NCBI GenBank assembly: GCA_902515985.1
Contig: CABXWY010000007.1
Location: 1-60,931, forward strand
Direction of reading: 5' to 3'
DNA length: 60,931 nucleotides
Origin: an uncultured Pelagibacteraceae bacterium
GTDB lineage: Bacteria; Pseudomonadota; Alphaproteobacteria; Pelagibacterales; Pelagibacteraceae
Part shown: piece by piece, positions 32,355 through 45,718 of the stretch
How the letters are laid out: each line of letters starts with the position of its first letter
How positions within the stretch are numbered: the first letter of the stretch is position 1
Made by a program: the position numbers and the translations under genes
Notes under the pieces: generated by a model
Told to the model about the DNA's origin: nothing
The model's input: the letters and a program-made list of their open reading frames with translations, nothing else
Database searches by the model: none

Positions 32355-32780
32355 TTAATCATTAAAATTATTACTTCCCTTAGCGTTTAAAGTGTATGGG
32401 TCACCATCACAAGCTGCGTCTTTAATTGCACAAGCAGTTATTTTATATCCAGTAGCGTGATCTTCAATACAAAATTCCCAACCGTCAACATCTATATTTT
32501 TTTCATCTCCCACAGTATCAAAAAGATCTGAATTTATTGTACTACTGCCCGCGGGTACTCCACAGTTACCTGTAACTGTTGTTACGTATTCTCCGTTAAT
32601 TGAGTAATATTCTTGCTGAGCTAATGCTATTTGTTGCATTGAATTTTTGGCAGCAGACGATTTTGTACCAGCTATGTAGCCGTTGTAAGCTAGTGTTCCT
32701 GCTGCTGCAAGAGTACCTATTATTGCAACGACTACTAAAAGCTCAATTAAACTAAAACCCTCAACTTTATTTTTTAACAA
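32355..32780 (-). CDS. Type IV pilin-like protein (major-type pilin 2), TTG start
   Basis: A 141-residue type IVa pilin. Short leader LKNKVEG then the mature start FSLIELLVVVAIIGTLAAAG with Glu5, the prepilin peptidase recognition and assembly signature. The globular part has a Cys pair near the C-terminus (ITACAIKDAACDGD), as in pilin D-loops. The only in-frame start before the leader is TTG at 32780, which overlaps the stop of the preceding pilin (TTGTTAA). Translation is therefore probably coupled and the level limited. Adjacent paralog: 32774-33241. Confidence 0.88.
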   Translation of the reverse strand: MLKNKVEGFSLIELLVVVAIIGTLAAAGTLAYNGYIAGTKSSAAKNSMQQIALAQQEYYSINGEYVTTVTGNCGVPAGSSTINSDLFDTVGDEKNIDVDGWEFCIEDHATGYKITACAIKDAACDGDPYTLNAKGSNNFND

Positions 32781-33718: not shown

Positions 33719-34131
33719 TGGATATCTCAGAATCTAAAGATTTTTTAGTTCACAGCGGTAGTTTAAAAGAAGTAAGAACTTTTTCTAGAGAAGTATTTGA
33801 AAAATTAAAACTAAACAATGATCTTAAAGATGAATTGGTGCTTGCAATCGCTGAAGCAGCGCAAAATATAGTCAAACATGGTTATAAAGGAGTTGAAGAT
33901 ACAAAAGATCATATGCAAATTAAAATTTCCATGAAGGATAATCAATTAGAAATAGGTTTTTTTGATAAAGGTAAGCCGGTAGTTGCGGAAAACATACAGC
34001 ACAGAAATTTAGATGATATAAAACCTGGAGGTTTAGGAACATTTTTTATTAAACAAATAATGGATGACGCTGTTTTTAAAAAAGACCAACAAAAATGGGT
34101 CAATCACTTAATACTTACAAAAAAGATTTAG
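33718..34131 (+). CDS. RsbW/SpoIIAB-like serine kinase (HATPase_c)
   Basis: A 137-residue GHKL-fold kinase/anti-sigma-type protein. N box LVLAIAEAAQNIVKHGY (Glu46, Asn50), a G1-type segment FFDKGKP, and G2-type GGLGTFFIKQIMDD. It would phosphorylate the STAS protein encoded just upstream and, in the unphosphorylated-partner state, sequester a target. The nearby SpoIIE-type phosphatases at 26934 and 46650 would reverse it. It is convergent with pilC and the coding ends overlap by 4 nt. Confidence 0.9.
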   Translation: MDISESKDFLVHSGSLKEVRTFSREVFEKLKLNNDLKDELVLAIAEAAQNIVKHGYKGVEDTKDHMQIKISMKDNQLEIGFFDKGKPVVAENIQHRNLDDIKPGGLGTFFIKQIMDDAVFKKDQQKWVNHLILTKKI

Positions 34132-35366
34132 CCAATTAATGCACCAACATTAAATATTGGTGAATACATTGCTATCATTAGTCCACCAATCATCAAGCCC
34201 ATAAAAACAATCATTATAGGTTCTATTAAACTGGACATATTATCAACTGCTGTATCAAATTCAGCTTCATAATATATTGCTACAGAATTAAACATTTCAT
34301 CAAGCTGACCAGTTTGTTCACCTACAGAGATAAGTTGGCTAAAAGTAGGTGGGAACAATGGTTCCTTTAAAAATAATTTTGTTAATGTGTCACCAGAAAA
34401 AACACCCTTTTTAACATTTTCTAAAGCTTCAGTTACTACTACATTTTTACTTACTGATTTTGCAATCTCTATACTTTCAAGCAAATTCACACCAGCGGCA
34501 CTCAAGTTTCCCATTATCAAAGAAATTTGTGCTAACAAAGATTTTAAAATTAAGTCTCCAAAGACTGGAAGTTTTAAAACCTGCTTATGCCATCTATATT
34601 TAATAGCTTCATTTTTTGTCGTCAAATATCTAAAAGCTCCATACCCACCTACTAATGATATAAGCATAATCAATCCACCTGTCCCTCTAAGAAAATTACT
34701 CATATTCATAATAACTGCAGTAGGTTTTGGAAGTGCAATTCCCATTCCATCATACATGTTTGCAAATACCGGAACTACTTTAATTAACATAAAAGCGCTT
34801 ACAGTAATTGCTACTGTAAACATTATTGACGGATACATTAATGCACTTTTGATTTTTTTCTTTATTTTTTCTTTTTTTTCCAAATCATCTACAATTTTCA
34901 TAAGAAAAACATCTAACTTACCACTCGCTTCTCCAGCTCTTATTAAGTTTACGTAAACATTATCAAACTGTTTTGGATATTTTTCAAAACATTTTGATAA
35001 AGTAACACCTCCCTCTAAACTTTTTCGAATATCCTCAACTATATCTTTAATTGCAGGTCCCTCAAGCTGATCTCTTAACATTGCAAGCGTTTGAAGAATA
35101 GGCAGACCCGCTTTAACCATGGTTGCAAATTGCTTTGAAAAAATTAATATTTCCTCAACTTTAACTTTCTTTTTACCAAAAAGAGAAGATCCTTTGCTCT
35201 TAGATTTTTCTTTTTTAGCGCCTTTTTTCTTTGCTGACTTTATTAAGTTAGTGATTATTATTTTTTGTTCTTTTAATTTGAATGATGCTTCGTCTTGATT
35301 TAAGGCCTCTATTTCTCCTTCAACGTATTTTCCTGCTGATATTCCTTTATAAGTGAAGGCTTCCAT
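34128..35366 (-). CDS. pilC: Type IV pilus inner-membrane platform protein PilC (GspF family)
   Basis: A 412-residue platform protein: N-terminal segment AFTYKGISAGKYVEGEIEA, a Lys-rich linker, the first GspF domain (FSKQFATMVKAGLPILQTLAML), TM helices about 175-200 and 225-245, a second GspF domain (SLIMGNLSAAGVNLLESI), and a final TM with SLIEPIMIVFMGLMIGGLMIAMY. It anchors the motor ATPases. Starts 2 nt after the pilB stop and is the last gene of the pilMN-O-P-Q-B-C operon. Confidence 0.92.
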   Translation of the reverse strand: MEAFTYKGISAGKYVEGEIEALNQDEASFKLKEQKIIITNLIKSAKKKGAKKEKSKSKGSSLFGKKKVKVEEILIFSKQFATMVKAGLPILQTLAMLRDQLEGPAIKDIVEDIRKSLEGGVTLSKCFEKYPKQFDNVYVNLIRAGEASGKLDVFLMKIVDDLEKKEKIKKKIKSALMYPSIMFTVAITVSAFMLIKVVPVFANMYDGMGIALPKPTAVIMNMSNFLRGTGGLIMLISLVGGYGAFRYLTTKNEAIKYRWHKQVLKLPVFGDLILKSLLAQISLIMGNLSAAGVNLLESIEIAKSVSKNVVVTEALENVKKGVFSGDTLTKLFLKEPLFPPTFSQLISVGEQTGQLDEMFNSVAIYYEAEFDTAVDNMSSLIEPIMIVFMGLMIGGLMIAMYSPIFNVGALIG

Positions 35367-35368
35367 TT

Positions 35369-37120
35369 TTAACTAGATGACAATACACGTTCGAATTCTC
35401 TAAAATTCAATTCTCCGTTCGCAATTAGTCTTCTGCCCATATCTTGCATAGTTTGAAAACCCTCTTTAATTGCAATTTCTCTTAATTCAGGTGTTGTGGC
35501 TTGTCTAAGAATTGCCTCTTTAATTGGTTTTGAAACTACCATGATTTCATAAATTCCTTGTCTACCTTTATACCCAGTACTTTTACACTTAGCACAACCT
35601 TTTCCTTTAATTGCTTTAGTTCTTGATGCTTGCTCAGGAGAAAAACCTAAATCTGTTAAAACTTTTGGCGTAACGTCGTCATCTGGCACACGACAATCTT
35701 TACAATTTTTTCTAGCCAATCTTTGAGCTAGAACCATTTGAGTTGCTGCACTAATTAAATAATCGGGTGTTCCCATATTTTGCAATCTTGTAATAGTACT
35801 TGGTGCATCGTTAGTGTGTAGGGTGCTAAATACTAAGTGACCAGTTAAGGCAGCTTTTAAACCTATATCTACTGTTTCTTTATCTCGCATTTCTCCAACT
35901 AGAATAATTTCTGGATCCTGACGTAGAAATGATCTCAGAGCTGATGCAAATGATAAACCAATATCATCTTTAATTTGTACCTGTCCCACTCCATCTAATT
36001 CATATTCAACCGGGTCTTCTGCAGTTAAGATGTTTAAGTGAGGTTTGCTAACTTCTTTCAAAATACTATAAAGAGTAGTTGATTTACCAGATCCTGTTGG
36101 TCCTGTAACTAATATTAATCCTTGGGTACTATGAATTGATTTTCTTAAATTTTTTAAATCTTGGTCCTCAAAATTTAATTGTTCAAGCGTAATATCTCCA
36201 GCATCTTTATTTAAAATACGCATAACAATTCTCTCATTGTTAGCTGTTGGAAGAATTGATAATCGAAGATCAACTACTTTGCCATCTATCTTAAAATTTA
36301 TTGCACCATCTTGTGGCAGTCTTCTTTCAGCAATATCAAGTTTTCCCATTATTTTAAATCTTGTCACCACCGCGCCATAATTATCATGAAGAAATTTTTT
36401 ATATTCCTCTTGTTCTTGAAGCATACCATCTAATCTGTATCTAACTCTAGATGAAAATCTGTATGGTTCAATGTGAATATCACTAACACCTAACTTTATT
36501 GCATCTGCAACCACGGCTGTACTAAACTTAATAACTTCAGACTCGTTTTCTAACGCTTCAATTTCCTCTTCAGGTTCTTTTTCTAAAACTTCTCCAGCAT
36601 CTCCTAGATCAGAGTCGAATGTTTTTGTTTTTTCTTTTTTTTCTTGTCTTATTGTTTCAGTTGTAATGTTACCACTTTCACTTTGAAGTTTTTGAATATA
36701 CTCAGAAATTTGACTTACAGTAGCAGCATGTAATTCAATTTCTTTTTTTGTAATAGCCTTTAAATTTCTCATTAAACCAAGTTTCGAACTATCAGATATT
36801 GCGATATGGAGTACCTTTCCATCTACTTTAAATGGAGCAACAAAATTAACATTAATATAATTTGATGGAAGTACAGATTTTATCTCATCTGTAATTTCTA
36901 CTTTTGCTAGATCAATAGTTTCTAAACTTTGTTCTTTAACTAATACATCAAGAATTTTTTTTTCATCACATAATTTAAGTTCAAAAACTGCATCAATTTG
37001 TGATTTATTACCCTCAGTACTGACTTTTTTTATATTTGGTAAATCTTTTCCTGAAATAATATCGTTATCTATCAATACATTAATAAGATTAATTTCACTT
37101 TCTCTACTTATTTTTAACAT
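35369..37120 (-). CDS. pilB: Type IV pilus extension ATPase PilB (GspE family)
   Basis: A 583-residue secretion ATPase from ATG 37120 (MLKISRESE). MshEN-type N-terminal domain, then a C-terminal motor with SDIHIEPY, Walker A GPTGSGKST near 350, Asp box EDPVEYELDG, Walker B FLRQDPEIILVGEMRD, and His box HLVFSTLHTNDA. A tetracysteine zinc site (CKDC...CAKC) in the C-terminal part is a PilB trait that distinguishes it from PilT. It powers pilus extension. The start overlaps nothing; the secretin stop is 1 nt upstream. Confidence 0.93.
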   Translation of the reverse strand: MLKISRESEINLINVLIDNDIISGKDLPNIKKVSTEGNKSQIDAVFELKLCDEKKILDVLVKEQSLETIDLAKVEITDEIKSVLPSNYINVNFVAPFKVDGKVLHIAISDSSKLGLMRNLKAITKKEIELHAATVSQISEYIQKLQSESGNITTETIRQEKKEKTKTFDSDLGDAGEVLEKEPEEEIEALENESEVIKFSTAVVADAIKLGVSDIHIEPYRFSSRVRYRLDGMLQEQEEYKKFLHDNYGAVVTRFKIMGKLDIAERRLPQDGAINFKIDGKVVDLRLSILPTANNERIVMRILNKDAGDITLEQLNFEDQDLKNLRKSIHSTQGLILVTGPTGSGKSTTLYSILKEVSKPHLNILTAEDPVEYELDGVGQVQIKDDIGLSFASALRSFLRQDPEIILVGEMRDKETVDIGLKAALTGHLVFSTLHTNDAPSTITRLQNMGTPDYLISAATQMVLAQRLARKNCKDCRVPDDDVTPKVLTDLGFSPEQASRTKAIKGKGCAKCKSTGYKGRQGIYEIMVVSKPIKEAILRQATTPELREIAIKEGFQTMQDMGRRLIANGELNFREFERVLSSS

Positions 37121-37121
37121 T

Positions 37122-38675
37122 TTATAAAACCCTTGGCGCAATAAAGATTAATAATTCATCAAGGCTATCACTTTTTTTTGTACCTTTAAATAAATTTCCT
37201 AAAACTGGAACATTTCCCAAACCAGGAAGTTGCTCTTTTGAATCAAATACCTTATTTTTCTTAATGCCACCAATAACAACAATATCTCCATCAGCAATTA
37301 AAAGTTTAGTTGCTATCTCCATCTTATTAATTCCTGGCTCGCCAGAAACAGCCCTGTTTACAGAGTCGTTATTTACTTGAACATCTAATAGAACGTTTCC
37401 GTCACCTATAATGCTTGGTGTAACTGTTAACTTTAGTGCCGCCTCTTTAAATGAAGTATTAGCACCTTCGGCTCCTGTTGCTTGAAATTGTATTTCTTCA
37501 CCTTGTGTAATAGTTGCTACTTGGTTATCTAATGTGAAAACTTTTGGATTAGATATTGTTTTTCCAAGTCCTAAAGACTCTAAAGCTTGAATTTCAGCTT
37601 TTAAAACAGCTGAACCAGTTCTTTTCAAAATTCCAATACCACTTGTTGCTCCTGCTGCATTAGTTGTAAAATCAGTAATTGTGTCCGCTGTTCCTCCTAT
37701 CGCAGCACTACCATCTGTAATTGCAGTATTTGCGGTTGAGCTTGCGCCAGCTATACCACCAACAGACTCTTGACCTCTCTGATATGCACCACCCAATCTT
37801 GTTCCAAGTGCTCTCTCAAAATCTGAATCTGCTTCTACAATAAATGCTTCGATTAAAACTTGTTTTGTTCGTACATCTATTTCTCCAATTATTTTATCGA
37901 CAACATCTAAATCTTCACTTTTTCCTCTAACAATAATAGATCTTGTTGTAACTTCTTCTGTTATTTGTATTGGGCTAAAAGAGGATTCTCCTGATGAAGC
38001 AAATAATTCAGTTATGGTCGTTTTAGCCTGTGCAGGCGATATATAATAAAGTCTAAAAATTTCAGAGACTATTGGTTCGACTGAGTCCTCTAGTTCAACT
38101 TTTTTCTTTACTGCTGCCGCTCTTGTTGATTTATAATTTTCTTGTGCAGTTAGAGTTGATGGTGAGTGAACTCTTATTAAATTACTACTAACATCTATAT
38201 CTGCCGCGTAATTTTTCATGTCAAGTAATGCATTAAAAGCTTTATCCCAAGGAACATTACTTAGATCTGCAGATATTGAGCCTGCCACCTCGTCTCCAAC
38301 TAAAATATTAATTCCTCCTACTTTTCCCATTAATTGCATAGCTTCAGAATAATCTAAATTTTTAAATTTAAAACTTACGTTCTGTTTTAAAGAAGAAAAC
38401 TCATCAGGTATTAATAAATAATTTCTTTTTTGTTGTGATGAAATTTTTTTTCTTTTCTGAAGTTTTGTAGTATCTCCCAATACAGGTTGTGGACCCATAT
38501 CAATTGTTTTTTGTATTGTAGCTTTACCGGTCTTTCTAATATCCTCTTTTATAAGTGGTTCATTATGCTTAAAACCTCTAGATTTTGTCTTAGATAAAGG
38601 GTTGGTTGCACAACCATTTAGAAATATTGCTGAAATTATAAATATGAAAAAAAGCTTTAAGAATTTAATATTCAT
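37122..38675 (-). CDS. pilQ: Type IV pilus secretin (PilQ-like), lipoprotein
   Basis: A 517-residue outer-membrane secretin. It has a lipoprotein signal with lipobox LNGC (Cys22). Then an STN/N0-type domain (VSFKFKNLDYSEAMQLMGKV), an N1/NolW domain (EIFRLYYISPAQAKTTI), and a C-terminal secretin core with IVEADSDFERALGTRL, NPKVFTLDNQVATI, IADGDIVVIGGI and the end GLGNVPVLGNLFKGTKK followed by LLIFIAPRV. Shorter than PilQ of Pseudomonas (no AMIN domains). The lipid anchor may make it self-piloting. Its start overlaps the PilP-like gene by 11 nt. Confidence 0.9.
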   Translation of the reverse strand: MNIKFLKLFFIFIISAIFLNGCATNPLSKTKSRGFKHNEPLIKEDIRKTGKATIQKTIDMGPQPVLGDTTKLQKRKKISSQQKRNYLLIPDEFSSLKQNVSFKFKNLDYSEAMQLMGKVGGINILVGDEVAGSISADLSNVPWDKAFNALLDMKNYAADIDVSSNLIRVHSPSTLTAQENYKSTRAAAVKKKVELEDSVEPIVSEIFRLYYISPAQAKTTITELFASSGESSFSPIQITEEVTTRSIIVRGKSEDLDVVDKIIGEIDVRTKQVLIEAFIVEADSDFERALGTRLGGAYQRGQESVGGIAGASSTANTAITDGSAAIGGTADTITDFTTNAAGATSGIGILKRTGSAVLKAEIQALESLGLGKTISNPKVFTLDNQVATITQGEEIQFQATGAEGANTSFKEAALKLTVTPSIIGDGNVLLDVQVNNDSVNRAVSGEPGINKMEIATKLLIADGDIVVIGGIKKNKVFDSKEQLPGLGNVPVLGNLFKGTKKSDSLDELLIFIAPRVL

Positions 38676-39105
38676 TTGTCTCTCTAATTTGATTTTTGAA
38701 ATCCATTATTAAATAAGATTCATCACTTTGAAAAATGGCCTCATCTTGCTTCATGTCAACAAGCTTTACACCATCATTTAATTCTTCAAACATTGCTAGG
38801 CTTACAGTTTCTCCATCTTGATTAATCATAGAGATATAGCTTTTATTTTCAGATTTAATAATTCCAACTAGTTTGTAAGTATATAAATCTATTTTTTTTC
38901 TTTCTTGTTCTGACGTTTCGCCAGATGTAATAACTTTTACTCCACCAGAAAATGATGAGTCTCCTACAAATGGATCATTTAACGGTAAAGGTTCCTCTTT
39001 ATTGGTTTTTGCAGAAGCATTAGTATCGTGATTATCTGCAGATAAAACTGTACTAAATAAAAGTATAAATACTAATTTATAAAGAGTAATTTTAATAAAA
39101 TTCAT
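38665..39105 (-). CDS. pilP: PilP-like inner-membrane/periplasmic alignment protein
   Basis: A 146-residue secreted protein with a signal peptide (or N-terminal anchor), the NDPF motif that starts the PilP core, and a compact beta domain (TYKLVGIIKSENKSYISMIN, ELNDGVKLVDMKQDEAIF). PilP links PilN/PilO in the inner membrane to the secretin. It has no lipobox, unlike many PilP proteins. Position between PilO and the secretin supports the call; sequence similarity alone is modest. Confidence 0.75.
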   Translation of the reverse strand: MNFIKITLYKLVFILLFSTVLSADNHDTNASAKTNKEEPLPLNDPFVGDSSFSGGVKVITSGETSEQERKKIDLYTYKLVGIIKSENKSYISMINQDGETVSLAMFEELNDGVKLVDMKQDEAIFQSDESYLIMDFKNQIRETNEY

Positions 39106-39781
39106 TTGCTAGCCCCACTATTGTTAAAGTTCCACTAACTTTTATCGCTCCAGTTGAATCTCCTTTTACCACTTTTATTGATTCATTGTCAAAATTTAGC
39201 ATTTTATTGGATAAAGATAGTGCTCTCTTAAACTTTATATAACCAATAAAATTCCCGTTAATTTGAAATTTGACGGGTATTTTGTAATAAGCAATATCTT
39301 TTATAGCTTCTTTTTTTGAGGCCTTTTTCTTCTTTTTCTTCTTTTTCTTCTTCTTAGCTTTAGCATTTAATGCTTTAGATTTTGAAACTTCAACTGGCTG
39401 TCCTTTCTCAATTACTGATATTATCAAACCATTCATTGAAGCAAATTCACTTAAATTTTGGTAAAGACCTTCGACCTCTGCTTTCGAATGAAATAAAGTT
39501 GAATAATTTTCATATTTAGGCTTAATTTTTTTTATTTTCTTTTTTGCTTTAACTATGCCGTCTTTAAATTGAACTATCTCTGCTTGCTTAGCTTTCATAT
39601 CGCTAATTTTTGCTTTTTTCTTATTAACGATTGGATTAAGAATTGCGTAATAAATAATTAAAAAAACAATAATTGAACCTAGGCTGATACCAATTTTAAT
39701 AAGAGTTTTTTTGTCTGCAAAAGCCATAACTTTTGCTTTAAGATCGTCAATATTTAGGTTTTTAAGTTCGTTTAAATCCAT
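39092..39781 (-). CDS. pilO: PilO-like inner-membrane protein with polylysine linker
   Basis: A 229-residue protein: short cytoplasmic N-terminus, one TM helix about 30-50 (IGISLGSIIVFLIIYYAIL), a periplasmic coiled-coil (KKAKISDMKAKQAEIVQFK) and a ferredoxin-like domain. A tract of eleven consecutive lysines within KAKKKK...KKAS (near 143-157) interrupts the periplasmic domain. PilO dimerises with PilN in the alignment complex. It starts 2 nt after the PilM-PilN gene. The poly-A/G coding tract is slippage-prone. Confidence 0.8.
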   Translation of the reverse strand: MDLNELKNLNIDDLKAKVMAFADKKTLIKIGISLGSIIVFLIIYYAILNPIVNKKKAKISDMKAKQAEIVQFKDGIVKAKKKIKKIKPKYENYSTLFHSKAEVEGLYQNLSEFASMNGLIISVIEKGQPVEVSKSKALNAKAKKKKKKKKKKKASKKEAIKDIAYYKIPVKFQINGNFIGYIKFKRALSLSNKMLNFDNESIKVVKGDSTGAIKVSGTLTIVGLANEFY

Positions 39782-39783
39782 AA

Positions 39784-42210
39784 TTATCCATTCACTTTCA
39801 CAAAAACTTTAAAACCCTTCATTATTTGTTGCCCTGCTTTTGCGTTAGGCATTTTCATTGAAGAGAGTGACGCCTGTTTAATTAAACTTTTGCTTTGTAA
39901 GTTTCTAATCAACTGAAGTATATCATTATCCCCAGCAGCAATCCCTGTAATAACCACTTGTCGTTTGCCATCATAGTCTACAGAATCAAATTTAACTCTA
40001 TTTGGTACACTGGAAGCTATTTGGGCTAATACTCTATAACTTAAATCCTTATTAGATTTTAAAGTATTACTTAATTTTAATGTAGCAGTCATTTTTTTTA
40101 ACTCTTTTTTTATTTTTGCCAGTTGCTTTTGACTAATATCGTGCTCAGTTAAAACTTTTTGATAGCCTTTCAATTGATTATTGAAACTATAAATATTCCA
40201 GAAAGACAATCCAAACAAAATTAAATAAATTCCAGCAACAGCTCCTACTAAACCTTTATAGGCAAAATTTGAGAAAGCTTTCATCTTTTTCTGCTTAATC
40301 ATGCCTTCCCTATTTGGCAGAAGATTAATATTTTTGACTGCTGTTACAAATTTGTAATAACCAAAAACATCAAGTTTTCTAAATGCCAGTCCAACAACTG
40401 TTGAAAAATAAGATCTATTTTGTAGGCTTACTTTTTCCTCAAGTTGCTGAGGTATTTTAAGTCCATCAAAAGGATCAAATAAGTTAAAGCCTGTATTTAC
40501 TAAGCTTTTTCTAAAACTTGATAAATAATCCTCAACATTTTCTAAATTAGACACAACCTTTATATTTCTGACTCTTTTTTCATATTTAGTTTCAAAGTCT
40601 TGAACAGCTTGTTTTACCTGTGTCATAAATCTTCTAACTAATGCATCTTTTTCTTCCTGATCTTTTGACTCTTTTAAAATTTTTCTATCCTGACCCCTTA
40701 AGAAAATGTCAGTAATTATTGGGTTATTATTATATAAAATCATCACATAATTTTCATCTAAACCAAATTCGAGCAAAGCAGTAAAATTAGTATCTTCAGT
40801 CTTATTCGAAATCTGATTTATTTGATCAACTGCAGATTTTAATGCAAAACATTTTACATCTATAATTACAGGATTTAATCCACTATTTTTAATTATAGAT
40901 GTGTAATTATTTATATCAGTAAGTTTTGAGGCAACAAATAGAATATCCATTGTATTATCTTTTGGACTTCTATTAATAACTTGGTGGAATATTGAATAAT
41001 CATCTAAATTATCTGTAAGTTGAACTAAGTTTTCCCATAATGAGTTTGTATCAATAGCTTTTTTTAATTCTTCATCATTCATTAATGGTGCAGTTACAAC
41101 TCTTATAATTGCATTAGTTACTGGTATTGCTATTGCAGCGTTTGATGTAGAAACTTTTGATTTTTGTAAAGCAATATTTAATTCTTCACTCACCTTAGTT
41201 GCATGATCTACAATTAATGCGTCCTCTGGTAAATCAATTTTGTGTATATAAAATCTATCCATCACCCATTGATTAGATTTATTTGATGAAATTTGCGAAA
41301 GTCTAATTTCTGTATTTGTGATTTCAACTCCTACAATTTCCTCACCTTGAGCAGTTTTCTTACCAAGTCTTGTTTTAATAAAATTATTAAATTTTTCTTT
41401 TACTTTCCCGCCACTTGATTTAAAATTTAATTTTTTTCCATCTCCTTTTCCTAAAGATGGAACTTTAAATTTAATATTTTTTAATTTTTCTAATAAATTT
41501 TTTGGTTTTGTTTCAACTGGATCTTCTGACAAAATTTTTTGAGAAGCTGGCGTTATATTTTCTGTAGTTGGTTTATTTTGTTCTGTAACTTGATTTACAA
41601 CTTCTTGAGGTTTCGTTACTGTCTCAACTGGTGTTTCAATTTTTTCTGCTACTTCACTTGAAACTTGTTGTTCTAAATTTTCTTTCTCTTTATCATTTCC
41701 TGATTGTACATCATCAAACCATTTTTCAAGAATAGGTATTGCTTCTTCCAAATTTGGCGTGCCTGATGAAGAAATTTTTTGTTTTCCATCTTTATAAAGT
41801 CTTCCAACCCAATTTTTCGATTTTAGTTCTCCCTTATATTTATCTTGTCTTACATATATATGAAGTCTTCCATCCTTTTTGTGAATTACTTGGTGTTCTT
41901 TTTTTTCTTGTTCGTTATTTTTTTCAATATTTTCATTAATATTTATGTCTTGCGCAACTTCATCGTTACTTTCAGGGGAATTTTTTTCTGGTGAGGATAA
42001 ATTTGTACTTTGAGTTTCTACTTCGGCATCTTTCTGCGTCTCATTATCAACTTTAGGTTGTTCAGAAGTTAAATTCTGCTTTTGATCTTCTGTTTTTGCA
42101 TTTGAGTCAGGAGTTCCAGACGATTCATTATCAACCTGAGGTTTTTCACCTTCAGATTGGTTATTCTTATCTATTACGACTCCGAACTTTTCTTTCTCTT
42201 TGTCATCCAT
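39784..42210 (-). CDS. PilM-PilN fusion protein with extra N-terminal domain
   Basis: An 808-residue fusion. Residues 1-105: acidic disordered region; 108-170: a compact basic domain (GRLHIYVRQDKYKGELKSK, WVGRLYKDGKQ, EKWFDDVQS); 171-285: disordered. About 290-600 is an actin-like PilM fold (GVEITNTEIRLSQIS, and DATKVSEELNIALQ-type helices). From about 640 comes PilN: the INLLP motif, one TM near 660-680, and a periplasmic coiled coil and domain. PilM and PilN normally bind through the INLLP peptide, so the fusion makes this fixed. First gene of the operon, behind the repeat-rich region. Confidence 0.85.
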   Translation of the reverse strand: MDDKEKEKFGVVIDKNNQSEGEKPQVDNESSGTPDSNAKTEDQKQNLTSEQPKVDNETQKDAEVETQSTNLSSPEKNSPESNDEVAQDININENIEKNNEQEKKEHQVIHKKDGRLHIYVRQDKYKGELKSKNWVGRLYKDGKQKISSSGTPNLEEAIPILEKWFDDVQSGNDKEKENLEQQVSSEVAEKIETPVETVTKPQEVVNQVTEQNKPTTENITPASQKILSEDPVETKPKNLLEKLKNIKFKVPSLGKGDGKKLNFKSSGGKVKEKFNNFIKTRLGKKTAQGEEIVGVEITNTEIRLSQISSNKSNQWVMDRFYIHKIDLPEDALIVDHATKVSEELNIALQKSKVSTSNAAIAIPVTNAIIRVVTAPLMNDEELKKAIDTNSLWENLVQLTDNLDDYSIFHQVINRSPKDNTMDILFVASKLTDINNYTSIIKNSGLNPVIIDVKCFALKSAVDQINQISNKTEDTNFTALLEFGLDENYVMILYNNNPIITDIFLRGQDRKILKESKDQEEKDALVRRFMTQVKQAVQDFETKYEKRVRNIKVVSNLENVEDYLSSFRKSLVNTGFNLFDPFDGLKIPQQLEEKVSLQNRSYFSTVVGLAFRKLDVFGYYKFVTAVKNINLLPNREGMIKQKKMKAFSNFAYKGLVGAVAGIYLILFGLSFWNIYSFNNQLKGYQKVLTEHDISQKQLAKIKKELKKMTATLKLSNTLKSNKDLSYRVLAQIASSVPNRVKFDSVDYDGKRQVVITGIAAGDNDILQLIRNLQSKSLIKQASLSSMKMPNAKAGQQIMKGFKVFVKVNG

Positions 42211-42232: not shown

Positions 42233-42543
42233 TCTAACACAATTTCTATTATCTCTAACACAATTTTATAAAAAGTCTAACACAAAAATTTAATTTAAGT
42301 GTCCATTATAGGTTGAAAATTAAATAAACCGCATAAATACTTGTTTTTTGATCATTATGAAATTTTTATAAAATTATTATTTTTTTTATTTAATTTTACA
42401 ACTCTAACACAAATCCACGAATCAATTTTGTGTTAGAGTTTATATTTTTTTTTACAAATTAAAAAAGTCAATAAATTCAACGTTTTTTTTAAATTAAATT
42501 TTTAGTTGAAAATTTGTGTTAGAGTGTTTTTTTTTGTGTTAGA
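42233..42543. repeat. Seven-copy TCTAACACAA array, four forward then three reverse
   Basis: Forward copies at 42233-42242, 42254-42263, 42276-42285 and 42403-42412; reverse copies (TTGTGTTAGA) at 42428-42437, 42514-42523 and 42534-42543. Six of seven extend to CTCTAACACAA. The first three are spaced 21 and 22 bp apart, and the last two 20 bp, close to two helical turns each. All left-hand copies point right and all right-hand copies point left, so the array is mirror-symmetric. Read in the pilMN direction, the proximal three lie 23-75 bp before its ATG. Operator-like; the binding factor is unknown. Confidence 0.85.
42400..42440. terminator. 14-bp inverted repeat at the centre of the array
   Basis: AACTCTAACACAAA (42400-42413) and TTTGTGTTAGAGTT (42427-42440) are perfect complements around 13 nt. 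On the plus strand it is followed by TATA then a T-run, so it could end plus-strand transcripts; on the minus strand a T-rich stretch is less direct. It may instead serve as the core operator of the array. No plus-strand gene upstream needs ending, so a regulatory role seems more likely. Confidence 0.45.
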
Positions 42544-42765: not shown

Positions 42766-43833
42766 TTATTCAGCAGCTTTACCGACTAATGTAAATGTAC
42801 CTTCATACCTTTCAATAGACTCTACAAATGTTTGTTCATCAGCACCATTTGCAGTATGTCCGCCTTCCATGGCCATAGTTCCAAATCCATCAGAACCTTC
42901 TGATGCAGTTGTAAATTTACCGTAAAAATAAATTGAACCAAATGAACTTGTATCATTTATGTCGTTGTTATATTCCTCAATATGATTTTGTTTAACAGTC
43001 CAATAATTTCCGACTCCGCATGCAGCAGCTGTACAAGCATCTTGAAGTAATTCAGTTGTTTTTTTCATAGTACTAAACTTGCTTGATGCATCGTCAGCAC
43101 CAAAGGGTGCGCCGTGAGATCCCCATCCAGTACCTATTCTTTGATCCTCTGTTGCTACTATTGGCTGAGGTGGATCTGTATTAAGTGCAGCTGCGACAGA
43201 CGCTGTTCCAGTTCTCCAATCACTTTCAATTTCAAAATTTTTTTCAGCACCTTGTCCACCTGCACCTGCCGCACGTGTTATTTTTGTAAAGACATCCGCA
43301 AAAATAGTTTGGTCCTTGAAATTTACATAAACTTTTGATCTTGCTTGTGGTGGTGAGCTTGCATTAAATACATCATTGCTATCTGTGTATTCTAAATCAC
43401 CTCCGGTAACTTTAGTCAAAGTTTGCCATTCACTATCATAGACAATAGTGTCCGGAGTAATTGCTTGAACATAATCGTCACTTAAGTGTGATATATTAGT
43501 TTCCATTGATGCGATTGCTGCTGCCATCGTCTCGGTATCTGATGCATCTAAAGACGCTAAGATTGTTGCAGCTTCAGTATTTATTTGTAATCCATTTTTT
43601 TCTGCAGCTTTTTTTATTCCTATACTAAGCTCTGCACTATCAATTAAACTTGCAGTGGCATTACCACTGTCTTCAATACTTTGTGTATCATTTGTTACAG
43701 AGCTACTCATGGAACTTGCAATTTGATTTAGTGCTGTAGTTGATGGTGAAGGTATAGAAATCTCTGCAAATACAAAAGAGTTTATAAAAGCAAGTATTAA
43801 AATTGTTTTTAATGTTAAAAATATTTTTTTCAT
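42766..43833 (-). CDS. Secreted protein of unknown function, third gene of OMP-FecR operon
   Basis: A 355-residue protein with a signal peptide (NSFVFA-EIS). Residues 25-125 are Ser/Ala/Thr-rich and helical; the rest has strands and turns with two closely spaced Cys (LLQDACTAAACGVG). It ends in a beta-rich segment (FGSIYFYGKFTTAS, FGTMAMEGGH, YEGTFTLVGKAAE). The alternating Gly/aromatic C-terminal pattern is reminiscent of the small barrels of TbpB-like surface proteins, but this is only a resemblance. Begins right after the FecR stop, so probably exported or surface-located cargo of this cassette. Confidence 0.6.
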   Translation of the reverse strand: MKKIFLTLKTILILAFINSFVFAEISIPSPSTTALNQIASSMSSSVTNDTQSIEDSGNATASLIDSAELSIGIKKAAEKNGLQINTEAATILASLDASDTETMAAAIASMETNISHLSDDYVQAITPDTIVYDSEWQTLTKVTGGDLEYTDSNDVFNASSPPQARSKVYVNFKDQTIFADVFTKITRAAGAGGQGAEKNFEIESDWRTGTASVAAALNTDPPQPIVATEDQRIGTGWGSHGAPFGADDASSKFSTMKKTTELLQDACTAAACGVGNYWTVKQNHIEEYNNDINDTSSFGSIYFYGKFTTASEGSDGFGTMAMEGGHTANGADEQTFVESIERYEGTFTLVGKAAE

Positions 43834-44409
43834 TTAATTTTTTATGGTAGCCTCAAACCCAGGATTAGTAATGTTTACTGAACTTATTCCATCTGAAAGT
43901 ATTAAATTGCCTGGAATCATTCCTAATGAGTTTTCTGGTCCAGGACCAAGTAATACAACTGTACTCTCATTTTTATTTTCTGCTAATACAACAAACTCTG
44001 TTCCACGTGCTCCAAGTGTACCAGAAGGAAACTTTACTTCTAAGTTTTCAGGATTTTTCTTACTTATTTGACCAGTAATGAATTTAACAGTTCCAGACTT
44101 CACATTAGAAACAAAAGATCCATCATGACTGTTTGGATCATATATAAACTCATCTATCGTTAATTCTGTATCTTCTCCAAGTGTTAAAATTGTTTGATCA
44201 AGAAACAATATTTGTGCATTCGAATTTTGATTTGATATAACGGTATCCCCAAAAAATATTTTCGATCCATTTGATAATTTTTCATTGTTTTGATTGGTTA
44301 TTTCACCAACAGCTGCCCCTATAACACCAATAAAATCAGTATTGGCCTTACCAAAATTTGGCATTAGGAGAAAAACCAGTAATATTAATAACTTTTTATT
44401 TAACAACAT
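43834..44409 (-). CDS. Secreted FecR-domain protein, short paralog
   Basis: A 191-residue protein: signal peptide (NFGKA-NTDF) and one FecR domain. IGVIGAAVGEITNQNNEKL, AQILFLDQTILTLGEDTELTIDEFIYDP, FPSGTLGARGTEF and LLGPGPENSLGM align visibly with the first 200 residues of the protein at 29087. It lacks the Lys/Ala/Pro tail. Its start overlaps the OMP gene by 14 nt. Despite the name, no sigma factor or TonB receptor is nearby, so a FecR-style iron-signalling role is not indicated. Confidence 0.85.
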   Translation of the reverse strand: MLLNKKLLILLVFLLMPNFGKANTDFIGVIGAAVGEITNQNNEKLSNGSKIFFGDTVISNQNSNAQILFLDQTILTLGEDTELTIDEFIYDPNSHDGSFVSNVKSGTVKFITGQISKKNPENLEVKFPSGTLGARGTEFVVLAENKNESTVVLLGPGPENSLGMIPGNLILSDGISSVNITNPGFEATIKN

Positions 44410-45718
44410 CTATATTCAACCTTTTTGTTAAACTTATCGTAAAAAAATTTCTTTCTACATCATAGTTAACTATATTTGAACTTACATCAGAGTTTTTTAA
44501 ATTTAAAGAATAAAAAATACTATTATCAGAATTTATTCTACTCACAAAAGGTAGTATTTGGTTGATTTGTCCACTTAGAGATAGAGATGTAACCAAACTT
44601 TCATCACTTCTTAAAATTTTACTACTTATAAACGACTCTCTTTCCTCATAATCATTTTCTAAATATGTACTCGTTAAATTAAAAGTTCCAATTGGATATA
44701 TTTGTGAATATGAAAGACTGATACCTTTTGAGTAATAGGTGTCATACTCCTTAAGAGTTTCAGTTCTATTTAAAATTAATCGGCTACCTAATTGTTTATT
44801 GTTAGAGAAATTGTAATTATGTCTAACAAAACTAGAATAGACATTGCTGTTACTTTCGTTAGCTGAAGGAAATTTTGAATTAGTATTATAAACAGTATCT
44901 GAAAAGGCCAATGAATAATTAATATTATTTTTTTCATTTAGAATTAAAGTATTATTTATTCCTGCACCAACTGATTGATAATCTTCTTGTCCTGTATAGT
45001 TCGGTTTTGTCCAGTATAGGTATGGGGAGGTGTAATGGTTTCCAAACATTTTAAAATAACTTAAAGAGGTCGATAAAATATCATTGTCGCCTTTAACTTT
45101 TTTATCAACATCATTTATATCGGCACCAAGATTTATAAAAAATGATGAACTATCATCAATATTTTTTCCTAATGTAATTGATGCAGCTCTTTTTCTAGTT
45201 CTGTCAGCTTTAACAATTATAGATCTATCTACGAATGGATATGCTTGTAGAACATTTCCTTGCATGATCTTTTTATTCTTTGTTACTCCACTGATATTAT
45301 TTTCTTTTGTCTGAGCATAAGTTAAATCTAAATATGCAAACCATTTGTTTTCTTTTTTTTCTTTCTTTTTTGTTTTAACTAACAACTCTGCTATAATTTT
45401 TTTTGTTTTATCTGACGTGTTTGGATCATTCATCATTGTTCTAACCATTAAATCAACTTTTACTGCTGAGTCCATTTCAATTAAAATTGATAACAAATAT
45501 AATTTAATATCTAGGTTCTCAGGATATAACATGCTAAGTCTTTCTAGAGTTGCTATAGTAAGTTTTAAATTACCTTGCTTTTCCTGTTGCTTGGCATAAT
45601 TAAGATTTAATTCTAAGTCCGATGGATTGTCTAAGATTTCCTCGTAAGTAATATTAATTGCGTAAACGTTCTTTGTAAAAAAAACAAAAATAAGTATTAA
45701 AAAAATTCTAAAGCGCAT
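44396..45718 (-). CDS. TPR + beta-barrel outer-membrane protein (FecR-partner paralog 2)
   Basis: A 440-residue protein with the same layout as 30779-32086: signal peptide (NVYA-INIT), TPR domain about 20-125 (SDLELNLNYAKQQEKQGNL, TLERLSMLYPENLDIKLYLL), and about 300 residues of beta strands ending FFTISLTKRLNIDVVK. The helical repeats of the two proteins are nearly superimposable, while the barrels have diverged. Followed by FecR and a secreted protein with overlapping or abutting ends, so a three-gene operon. Starts 13 nt after the pilD stop. Confidence 0.75.
   Translation of the reverse strand: MRFRIFLILIFVFFTKNVYAINITYEEILDNPSDLELNLNYAKQQEKQGNLKLTIATLERLSMLYPENLDIKLYLLSILIEMDSAVKVDLMVRTMMNDPNTSDKTKKIIAELLVKTKKKEKKENKWFAYLDLTYAQTKENNISGVTKNKKIMQGNVLQAYPFVDRSIIVKADRTRKRAASITLGKNIDDSSSFFINLGADINDVDKKVKGDNDILSTSLSYFKMFGNHYTSPYLYWTKPNYTGQEDYQSVGAGINNTLILNEKNNINYSLAFSDTVYNTNSKFPSANESNSNVYSSFVRHNYNFSNNKQLGSRLILNRTETLKEYDTYYSKGISLSYSQIYPIGTFNLTSTYLENDYEERESFISSKILRSDESLVTSLSLSGQINQILPFVSRINSDNSIFYSLNLKNSDVSSNIVNYDVERNFFTISLTKRLNIDVVK

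Follow-up and report, generated by a model that had tools for sequence, protein, structure and literature searches.

We report here on a window of 60,931 nucleotides, that is, the whole stretch of DNA analysed (contig CABXWY010000007.1 of assembly GCA_902515985.1, positions 1 to 60,931, forward strand), from an uncultured member of the SAR11 group (Pelagibacteraceae) whose genome assembly comprises 1.09 Mb in 27 contigs and is 87.6% complete. The window carries an array of a 10-mer, TCTAACACAA, upstream of a pilus operon whose first gene is a pilM-pilN fusion (39784..42210, minus strand) encoding 808 amino acids, arranged as an integrase-type domain, a linker, PilM, a predicted transmembrane helix and PilN. 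The original prediction had described seven exact copies, four pointing right and three left, around a central 14-bp inverted repeat in a 555-bp non-coding gap upstream of pilM, and all of this is confirmed on both strands of the window. The exact matches start at 42233(+), 42254(+), 42276(+), 42403(+), 42428(-), 42514(-) and 42534(-), all within 311 bp (42233..42543, assigned to neither strand) that occupy most of the gap, with the consensus cTCTAACACAAa once the flanks are included. They comprise a pilM-proximal triplet (42233..42285, plus strand; 42233-42242, 42254-42263 and 42276-42285), whose nearest site is separated by 22 bp from the pilM start codon, a central inverted pair (42400..42440, both strands; 42403-42412 (+) and 42428-42437 (-)) inside the inverted repeat with arms 42400-42413 and 42427-42440, and a distal pair (42514..42543, minus strand; 42514-42523 and 42534-42543). 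The array had also been called symmetric; the use of two orientations holds, but with four copies against three the symmetry is loose. Measured in helical turns, the site spacings of 20, 21 and 22 bp (1.9-2.1 turns), 86 bp (8.19) and 127 bp (12.1) come near to whole numbers, and the claim that the spacings of 20-22 bp put sites on the same DNA face is thereby upheld. On the whole, TCTAACACAA, which is non-palindromic, is expected 0.26 times in the window, with a maximum of 2 in 100 dinucleotide shuffles, and is not common genome-wide, since the assembly has nine exact copies, seven in the array and two more elsewhere.

In the encoded protein, PilM_2 (PF11104, E 1e-19; residues 294-498, 40717..41331) and PilN (PF05137, E 2e-9; residues 726-802, 39805..40035) match above the cut-offs within a pilus operon, as befits a type IV pilus PilM-PilN, and a transmembrane helix is predicted from hydropathy only at residues 653-671 (40198..40254), all on the minus strand. 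Between two low-complexity linkers of the N-terminal extension sits a 63-residue domain of integrase arm-binding type (residues 105-167; 41710..41898, minus strand), with predicted DNA binding, which is far better conserved than its low-complexity surroundings. It is 51-66% identical to the N-termini of three SAR11 tyrosine integrases, and the integrase N-terminus used as query matches both classes, integrases (61 proteins with PF00589) and PilM-type proteins; judged by these alignments, the domain is homologous to the N-terminus of a SAR11 tyrosine integrase family, where arm-binding domains sit. Its predicted fold consists of strands and one helix. The catalytic domain PF00589 is absent from PilM-PilN, for which Pfam reports PilM_2 and PilN only (E 1), and a winged helix-turn-helix is found neither by Pfam (domain at E 10, whole protein at E 1) nor in the predicted fold. 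With the domain alone, Pfam gives nothing at E 10, PHROG gives two families without assigned function (E 6e-4 and 0.05), a PDB sequence search gives a single chance-level match (E 0.79), and Foldseek with the domain model gives nothing below E 0.6; the full-length predicted structure is poor (predicted local distance difference test, pLDDT, of 47) and was not used. Neither the integrase nor the domain matches anything in named phages, and the integrase alignment run against 349 genus genomes at E 1e-30 matches only one (G146). No literature connecting PilM with the array or with an integrase domain was found, as judged by titles and the openings of abstracts, the 10-mer alone not being fully covered.

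The array is conserved across SAR11 together with the domain. A PilM-PilN search of 61 genomes, the window's own and its relatives, gives matches in 18. Nine of them are extended frames of 755-840 amino acids with the N-terminal extension, own genome included, and nine are without the extension, namely seven of the same genus (572-583 amino acids) and two more distant (593-594 amino acids), one distant match being only 23% identical. All nine extended genes have at least five 10-mers with at most one mismatch upstream and not one of the nine short genes has them, some of these loci ending at contig edges. The domain-less loci all come from this search, and more may exist across the order. The short pilM genes and the more distant L026 (loci L019-L026) are divergent from a frame of 333-338 amino acids, which looked PilT-like on reading its translation, with a gap of 107-154 bp between them, while six extended loci have 542-842 bp before the next frame of at least 70 amino acids.

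Among 300 genus genomes, the domain is present in 62 and a tandem exact pair of the 10-mer in 57; the pair occurs in 57 of the 62 genomes with the domain and in none of the 238 without it. The domain in these 62 is nearly always on PilM-PilN, its location being judged for most of them by frame length. In one genome (G301) the pair and the domain lie on separate contigs, each near a contig end. As for the five domain genomes lacking the pair, one (G146) has the domain on an integrase, one (G285) has the locus at a contig start, and three (G154, G175 and G236) have 4-5 exact copies, none arranged as an exact tandem pair. We then pooled the fetched loci, which represent the matches listed rather than a full census. 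Among the matches listed there are 121 distinct domain sequences, 3 of them in integrases; of the remainder, 93 have 900 bp or more of sequence ahead of the domain and 25 have less. Four of these 93 are viral proteins without an array, and the other 89, assigned to PilM by frame length and layout with the PilM core checked directly for the members of the tree, all have 4-8 exact copies; among the distinct fetched PilM-type loci with enough upstream sequence, then, the array is found at 89 of 89. Neither of the two conditions under which the original prediction was to fail applies, the 10-mer not being common genome-wide and the array being conserved. A looser domain expression gives 91 loci instead, adding L206 and L209 with five copies each. 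Of the 25 shorter loci, again among the matches listed, 18 have 2-7 exact copies and 7 have none, with 28-526 bp available ahead of the domain, much of it pilM coding sequence. Across the order, 68 of 347 genomes matched; of the 12 genera sampled, 4 have the domain, all of them Pelagibacteraceae, and the three besides the window's own also have arrays of the same 10-mer. Matches in G452, G073 and G501 and a second one in G117 (E 2e-5 to 9e-4) were not counted, being in stop-containing frames or in frames whose translations look like unrelated proteins; the weak stop-containing ones at G117:C9:29790-29915 and G452:C13:8171-8293 (L191 and L192) are perhaps integrase remnants or chance. In GTDB r220, 177 loci encode a relative, and the best 80 of the 177 comprise 3 integrases and 77 others, all named as Pelagibacteraceae, Pelagibacter or Pelagibacterales except L208, from a Proteobacteria metagenome-assembled genome.

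The arrangement of the sites is variable, with 44 layouts among the 89 loci. Counting sites with one mismatch, the three commonest layouts comprise 7-8 sites. In common layouts the nearest site begins 27-51 bp before the start codon; distal sites lie about 200-380 bp upstream of it. Sites in the same orientation tend to helical phase: in ten layout classes, each represented by one hand-picked locus, the strongest period between 6 and 20 bp is 10.5 bp (mean cosine 0.42), with a separate peak at 7.0 bp (0.30), and over all 44 layouts the cosine is 0.39 at 10.5 bp and 0.56 at 10.7 bp, random jitter giving less than 0.10 at 10.5 bp; since the layouts are related, this result is only descriptive. 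Two loci (L120 and L194, of G154 and G328) have an enlarged array that extends, if sites with one mismatch are counted, to about 890 bp upstream of pilM. A second conserved element, GTTGAATTTATT here and mostly GTTGATTTTATT in relatives, occupies a nearly fixed place in the 86-bp gap (42470..42481, minus strand); GTTGATTTTATT within one mismatch is found there in 58 of 75 loci and in the longer gap in 22 of 69. It could be part of a promoter or a bending site, and one gene of HU/IHF type was found in the genome. A candidate -10 hexamer TATAAT (42305..42310, minus strand) was seen by eye in the 127-bp gap and is absent from the list of the promoter scan, which gave 6 sites here against 5.3 expected from shuffles, so that promoter-like sites are not enriched.

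A similar motif is shown to lie beside the integrases. The 674 array sites served to build a motif model, with which we scanned the full 6.2 kb of three integrase loci, L201, L202 and L203 (L201 and L203 being L181 and L117 under other names). The best hits, three each in L201 and L203 and two in L202, lie either 22-55 bp before the start codon of int or about 1.4 kb after it, past tRNA-Leu, and are mainly TCTTACACAA, one base off TCTAACACAA. The second-best score exceeds the maximum of 40 Markov-chain sequences in L201 (12.5 against 9.4) and L203 (12.1 against 11.2), but not in L202 (8.9 against 9.2), and the single best scores (12.1-13.6) are below the Markov maxima of 16.2-17.5. Since the loci are related to one another, the integrases of L117 and L181 being 69% identical, we count them as one supporting case and not three. 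The motif-bearing region is probably the attachment region, because a piece of tRNA-Leu lies on the other side of int. In all three loci a complete tRNA-Leu (anticodon CAA in L203 and L201) stands next to int and a 5' tRNA-Leu piece on the opposite side, as called by ARAGORN for L201 and L203 and by alignment for L202; the element thus seems to replace the tRNA it enters, perhaps resembling tRNA-dependent lysogeny (PMC10865867).

The domain is also found in viruses. In five viral contigs of IMG/VR (L281-L285), a protein of about 115 amino acids consists of the integrase-type domain and a C-terminal hydrophobic helix, with neither a recombinase part nor an array within 1.1 kb upstream; family P0083, of the same protein type, is listed with 359 contigs, Tara being among the sources. 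Against viral contigs, the integrase alignment finds five short membrane-type proteins, the PilM-weighted alignment and the L117 integrase find no relative, and P0066 finds one weak partial match. Apparently this is a second membrane-anchored use of the domain.

Domain and array show signs of joint inheritance. In the tree of the PilM core, clade A (A1 and A2, 19 rows, all with the domain) stands apart from clade B with support of 100/100, or 84/85 once a long-branched outgroup is added, and B includes 17 rows with the domain, the window among them, and 7 short genes as a single clade. In the domain tree, which is based on 61 columns and leaves half of its forks unresolved, B joins A2 (98/98), and both A1 and the integrases fall outside this group. 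The mean identity between A2 and B is 50% in the PilM core and 87% in the domain, compared with 63% and 72% between A1 and A2. Moreover, B-like layouts occur in some of A2 (L136, L212 and the L199 locus), where the first four sites are the same and the second gap is longer. The simplest reading of these sequence comparisons is that domain and array were transferred jointly between PilM lineages, while uneven constraint on the domain may alternatively account for the contrast in identity.

Based on these results, we consider it probable that the array is the operator of the pilMN operon, bound by PilM-PilN through the integrase-type domain and most likely repressing the operon. The original prediction of an operator for a dimeric regulator is supported as to a DNA-level operator, because the array is conserved with the operon, both orientations are used and the sites tend to helical phase; the likely partner, however, is the domain of PilM-PilN itself rather than a separate dimeric regulator, because the 10-mer is non-palindromic and near-copies adjoin integrases with the same domain. 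PilM is cytoplasmic and binds the N-terminus of PilN at the inner membrane, and since PilM and PilN are here one chain with a predicted helix, the domain would act from the membrane. We infer that it would dock on the array upstream of its own gene, where, given non-palindromic sites with a tendency to helical phase, several membrane-anchored copies would bind one DNA face together. The bound proteins would cover the DNA ahead of the start codon or draw it into a loop, and most likely the operon would be repressed once enough PilM-PilN is assembled, as some integrases repress their own genes by binding at the attachment region. Two things favour autorepression: the sites lie close to the start codon, and there is a precedent among integrases, KplE1 IntS and P4 Int binding sites upstream of their own genes (PMC2951348).

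A possible alternative is that the domain keeps the pil locus tethered to the inner membrane near assembling pili, with the array as anchoring site, so that transcription, translation and membrane insertion would take place there (transertion), or the chromosome would be positioned there. The predicted membrane helix, sites tending to one face that would suit a membrane surface, and the viral protein with the same domain on a hydrophobic helix all agree with it, and the capture of a locus by the membrane has a precedent in Vibrio T3SS2 (PMC9977878); one array per genome directly upstream of its own gene is, however, equally predicted by simple autoregulation. Tethering and regulation are compatible and both could hold. 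A more tentative extension makes the pilus base a DNA-holding device, in which PilM-PilN, by means of a domain taken from an integrase, would grip the in-phase array at its own operon and pin the chromosome to the inner membrane, pili would be built at their own genes, and viruses would use the domain likewise on a membrane anchor. That PilM-PilN on the array recruits polymerase and drives the operon, like membrane regulators of ToxR/CadC type, is unlikely: the distal sites are at positions possible for an activator, but the nearest site, 27-51 bp before the start codon, is probably downstream of the promoter and suits repression, and the integrase precedents repress (PMC2951348). Still somewhat less likely is a regulator unlinked to PilM, with the PilM domain binding something else and only the shared locus connecting the two. 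The co-occurrence does rest on few evolutionary events, and linkage alone could keep an adjacent array and domain together; against this, a similar motif adjoins integrases with the same domain, the array layout apparently moves with the domain but the PilM core does not, and all nine domain-less PilM-type loci lack the array. An RNA motif in the pilMN 5' leader, also proposed originally, is highly improbable, for although the central inverted repeat could form a hairpin, copies are used in both orientations, the lineages L127-L129 and L186 have every copy in one orientation and hence no conserved hairpin, the sites tend to helical phase, and Rfam gives no match. A DNA uptake sequence, an element with many copies spread across a genome, was rejected given the nine genome copies, seven of them in the array.

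The remaining operon downstream of pilM-pilN (34128..39781, minus strand) includes pilO (39092-39781, PF04350), a pilP-like gene placed by position only, as it has no Pfam match (38665-39105), a secretin (37122-38675, PF00263), an ATPase assigned by reading of the sequence only (35369-37141) and a T2SSF platform protein (34128-35366, PF00482), all on the minus strand. A minor pilin (32355-32780) matches ComP_DUS (PF16732, E 5e-7), a family of DNA-uptake pilins; a role of the pilus in transformation is possible. The stretch that separates the array from the prepilin peptidase (42766-45718) encodes a 355-amino-acid protein with no convincing Pfam match, a FecR-domain protein and a 440-amino-acid protein. 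For SAR11, PMC12636525 reports an adhesin gene adjoining pilus genes, surface attachment as unobserved, and pili as hardly known.

If the proposed autoregulation is true, a component of a surface machine would also bind its own operon, by means of an integrase N-terminal domain and a closely similar site moved into a core gene, and this in a bacterial group that is among the most abundant in the ocean. Direct tests of transertion and assembly-sensing autoregulation would become possible, the predicted code being 10 bp and its reader 63 residues long.

Compared with known systems, the nearest likeness is with the arm-binding domains of tyrosine integrases (P4-like, HAI7, HPI, Tn916 and lambda Int), which resemble the present domain in its predicted strands and one helix and in having several short non-palindromic sites near the own gene (PMC8138268). 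Unlike them, PilM-PilN has no recombinase and is fused to a pilus machine, no attachment core is seen in the array, and the array usually has 7-8 sites whereas each of the integrase loci here has two to four scoring near-copies. Integrase autoregulation at attL, as in KplE1 IntS and P4 Int, likewise uses sites upstream of the own gene, but there the product is a recombinase and the promoter is overlapped by sites of both arm and core type (PMC2951348), whereas here the operon is for pilus assembly. ToxR/CadC, VtrA/VtrB and transertion are similar in having a DNA-binding domain (predicted here) N-terminal to a membrane helix and in the local assembly of a secretion-type machine (PMC9977878), while PilM-PilN has no winged-helix match and is itself part of the machine. 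Finally, the type IV pilus PilM and PilN agree in PF11104 and PF05137 and in sharing an operon with genes for PilO, a secretin and a platform protein; the present case differs from them by the fusion, by the integrase-type domain added to it and by the gap upstream that bears the array.
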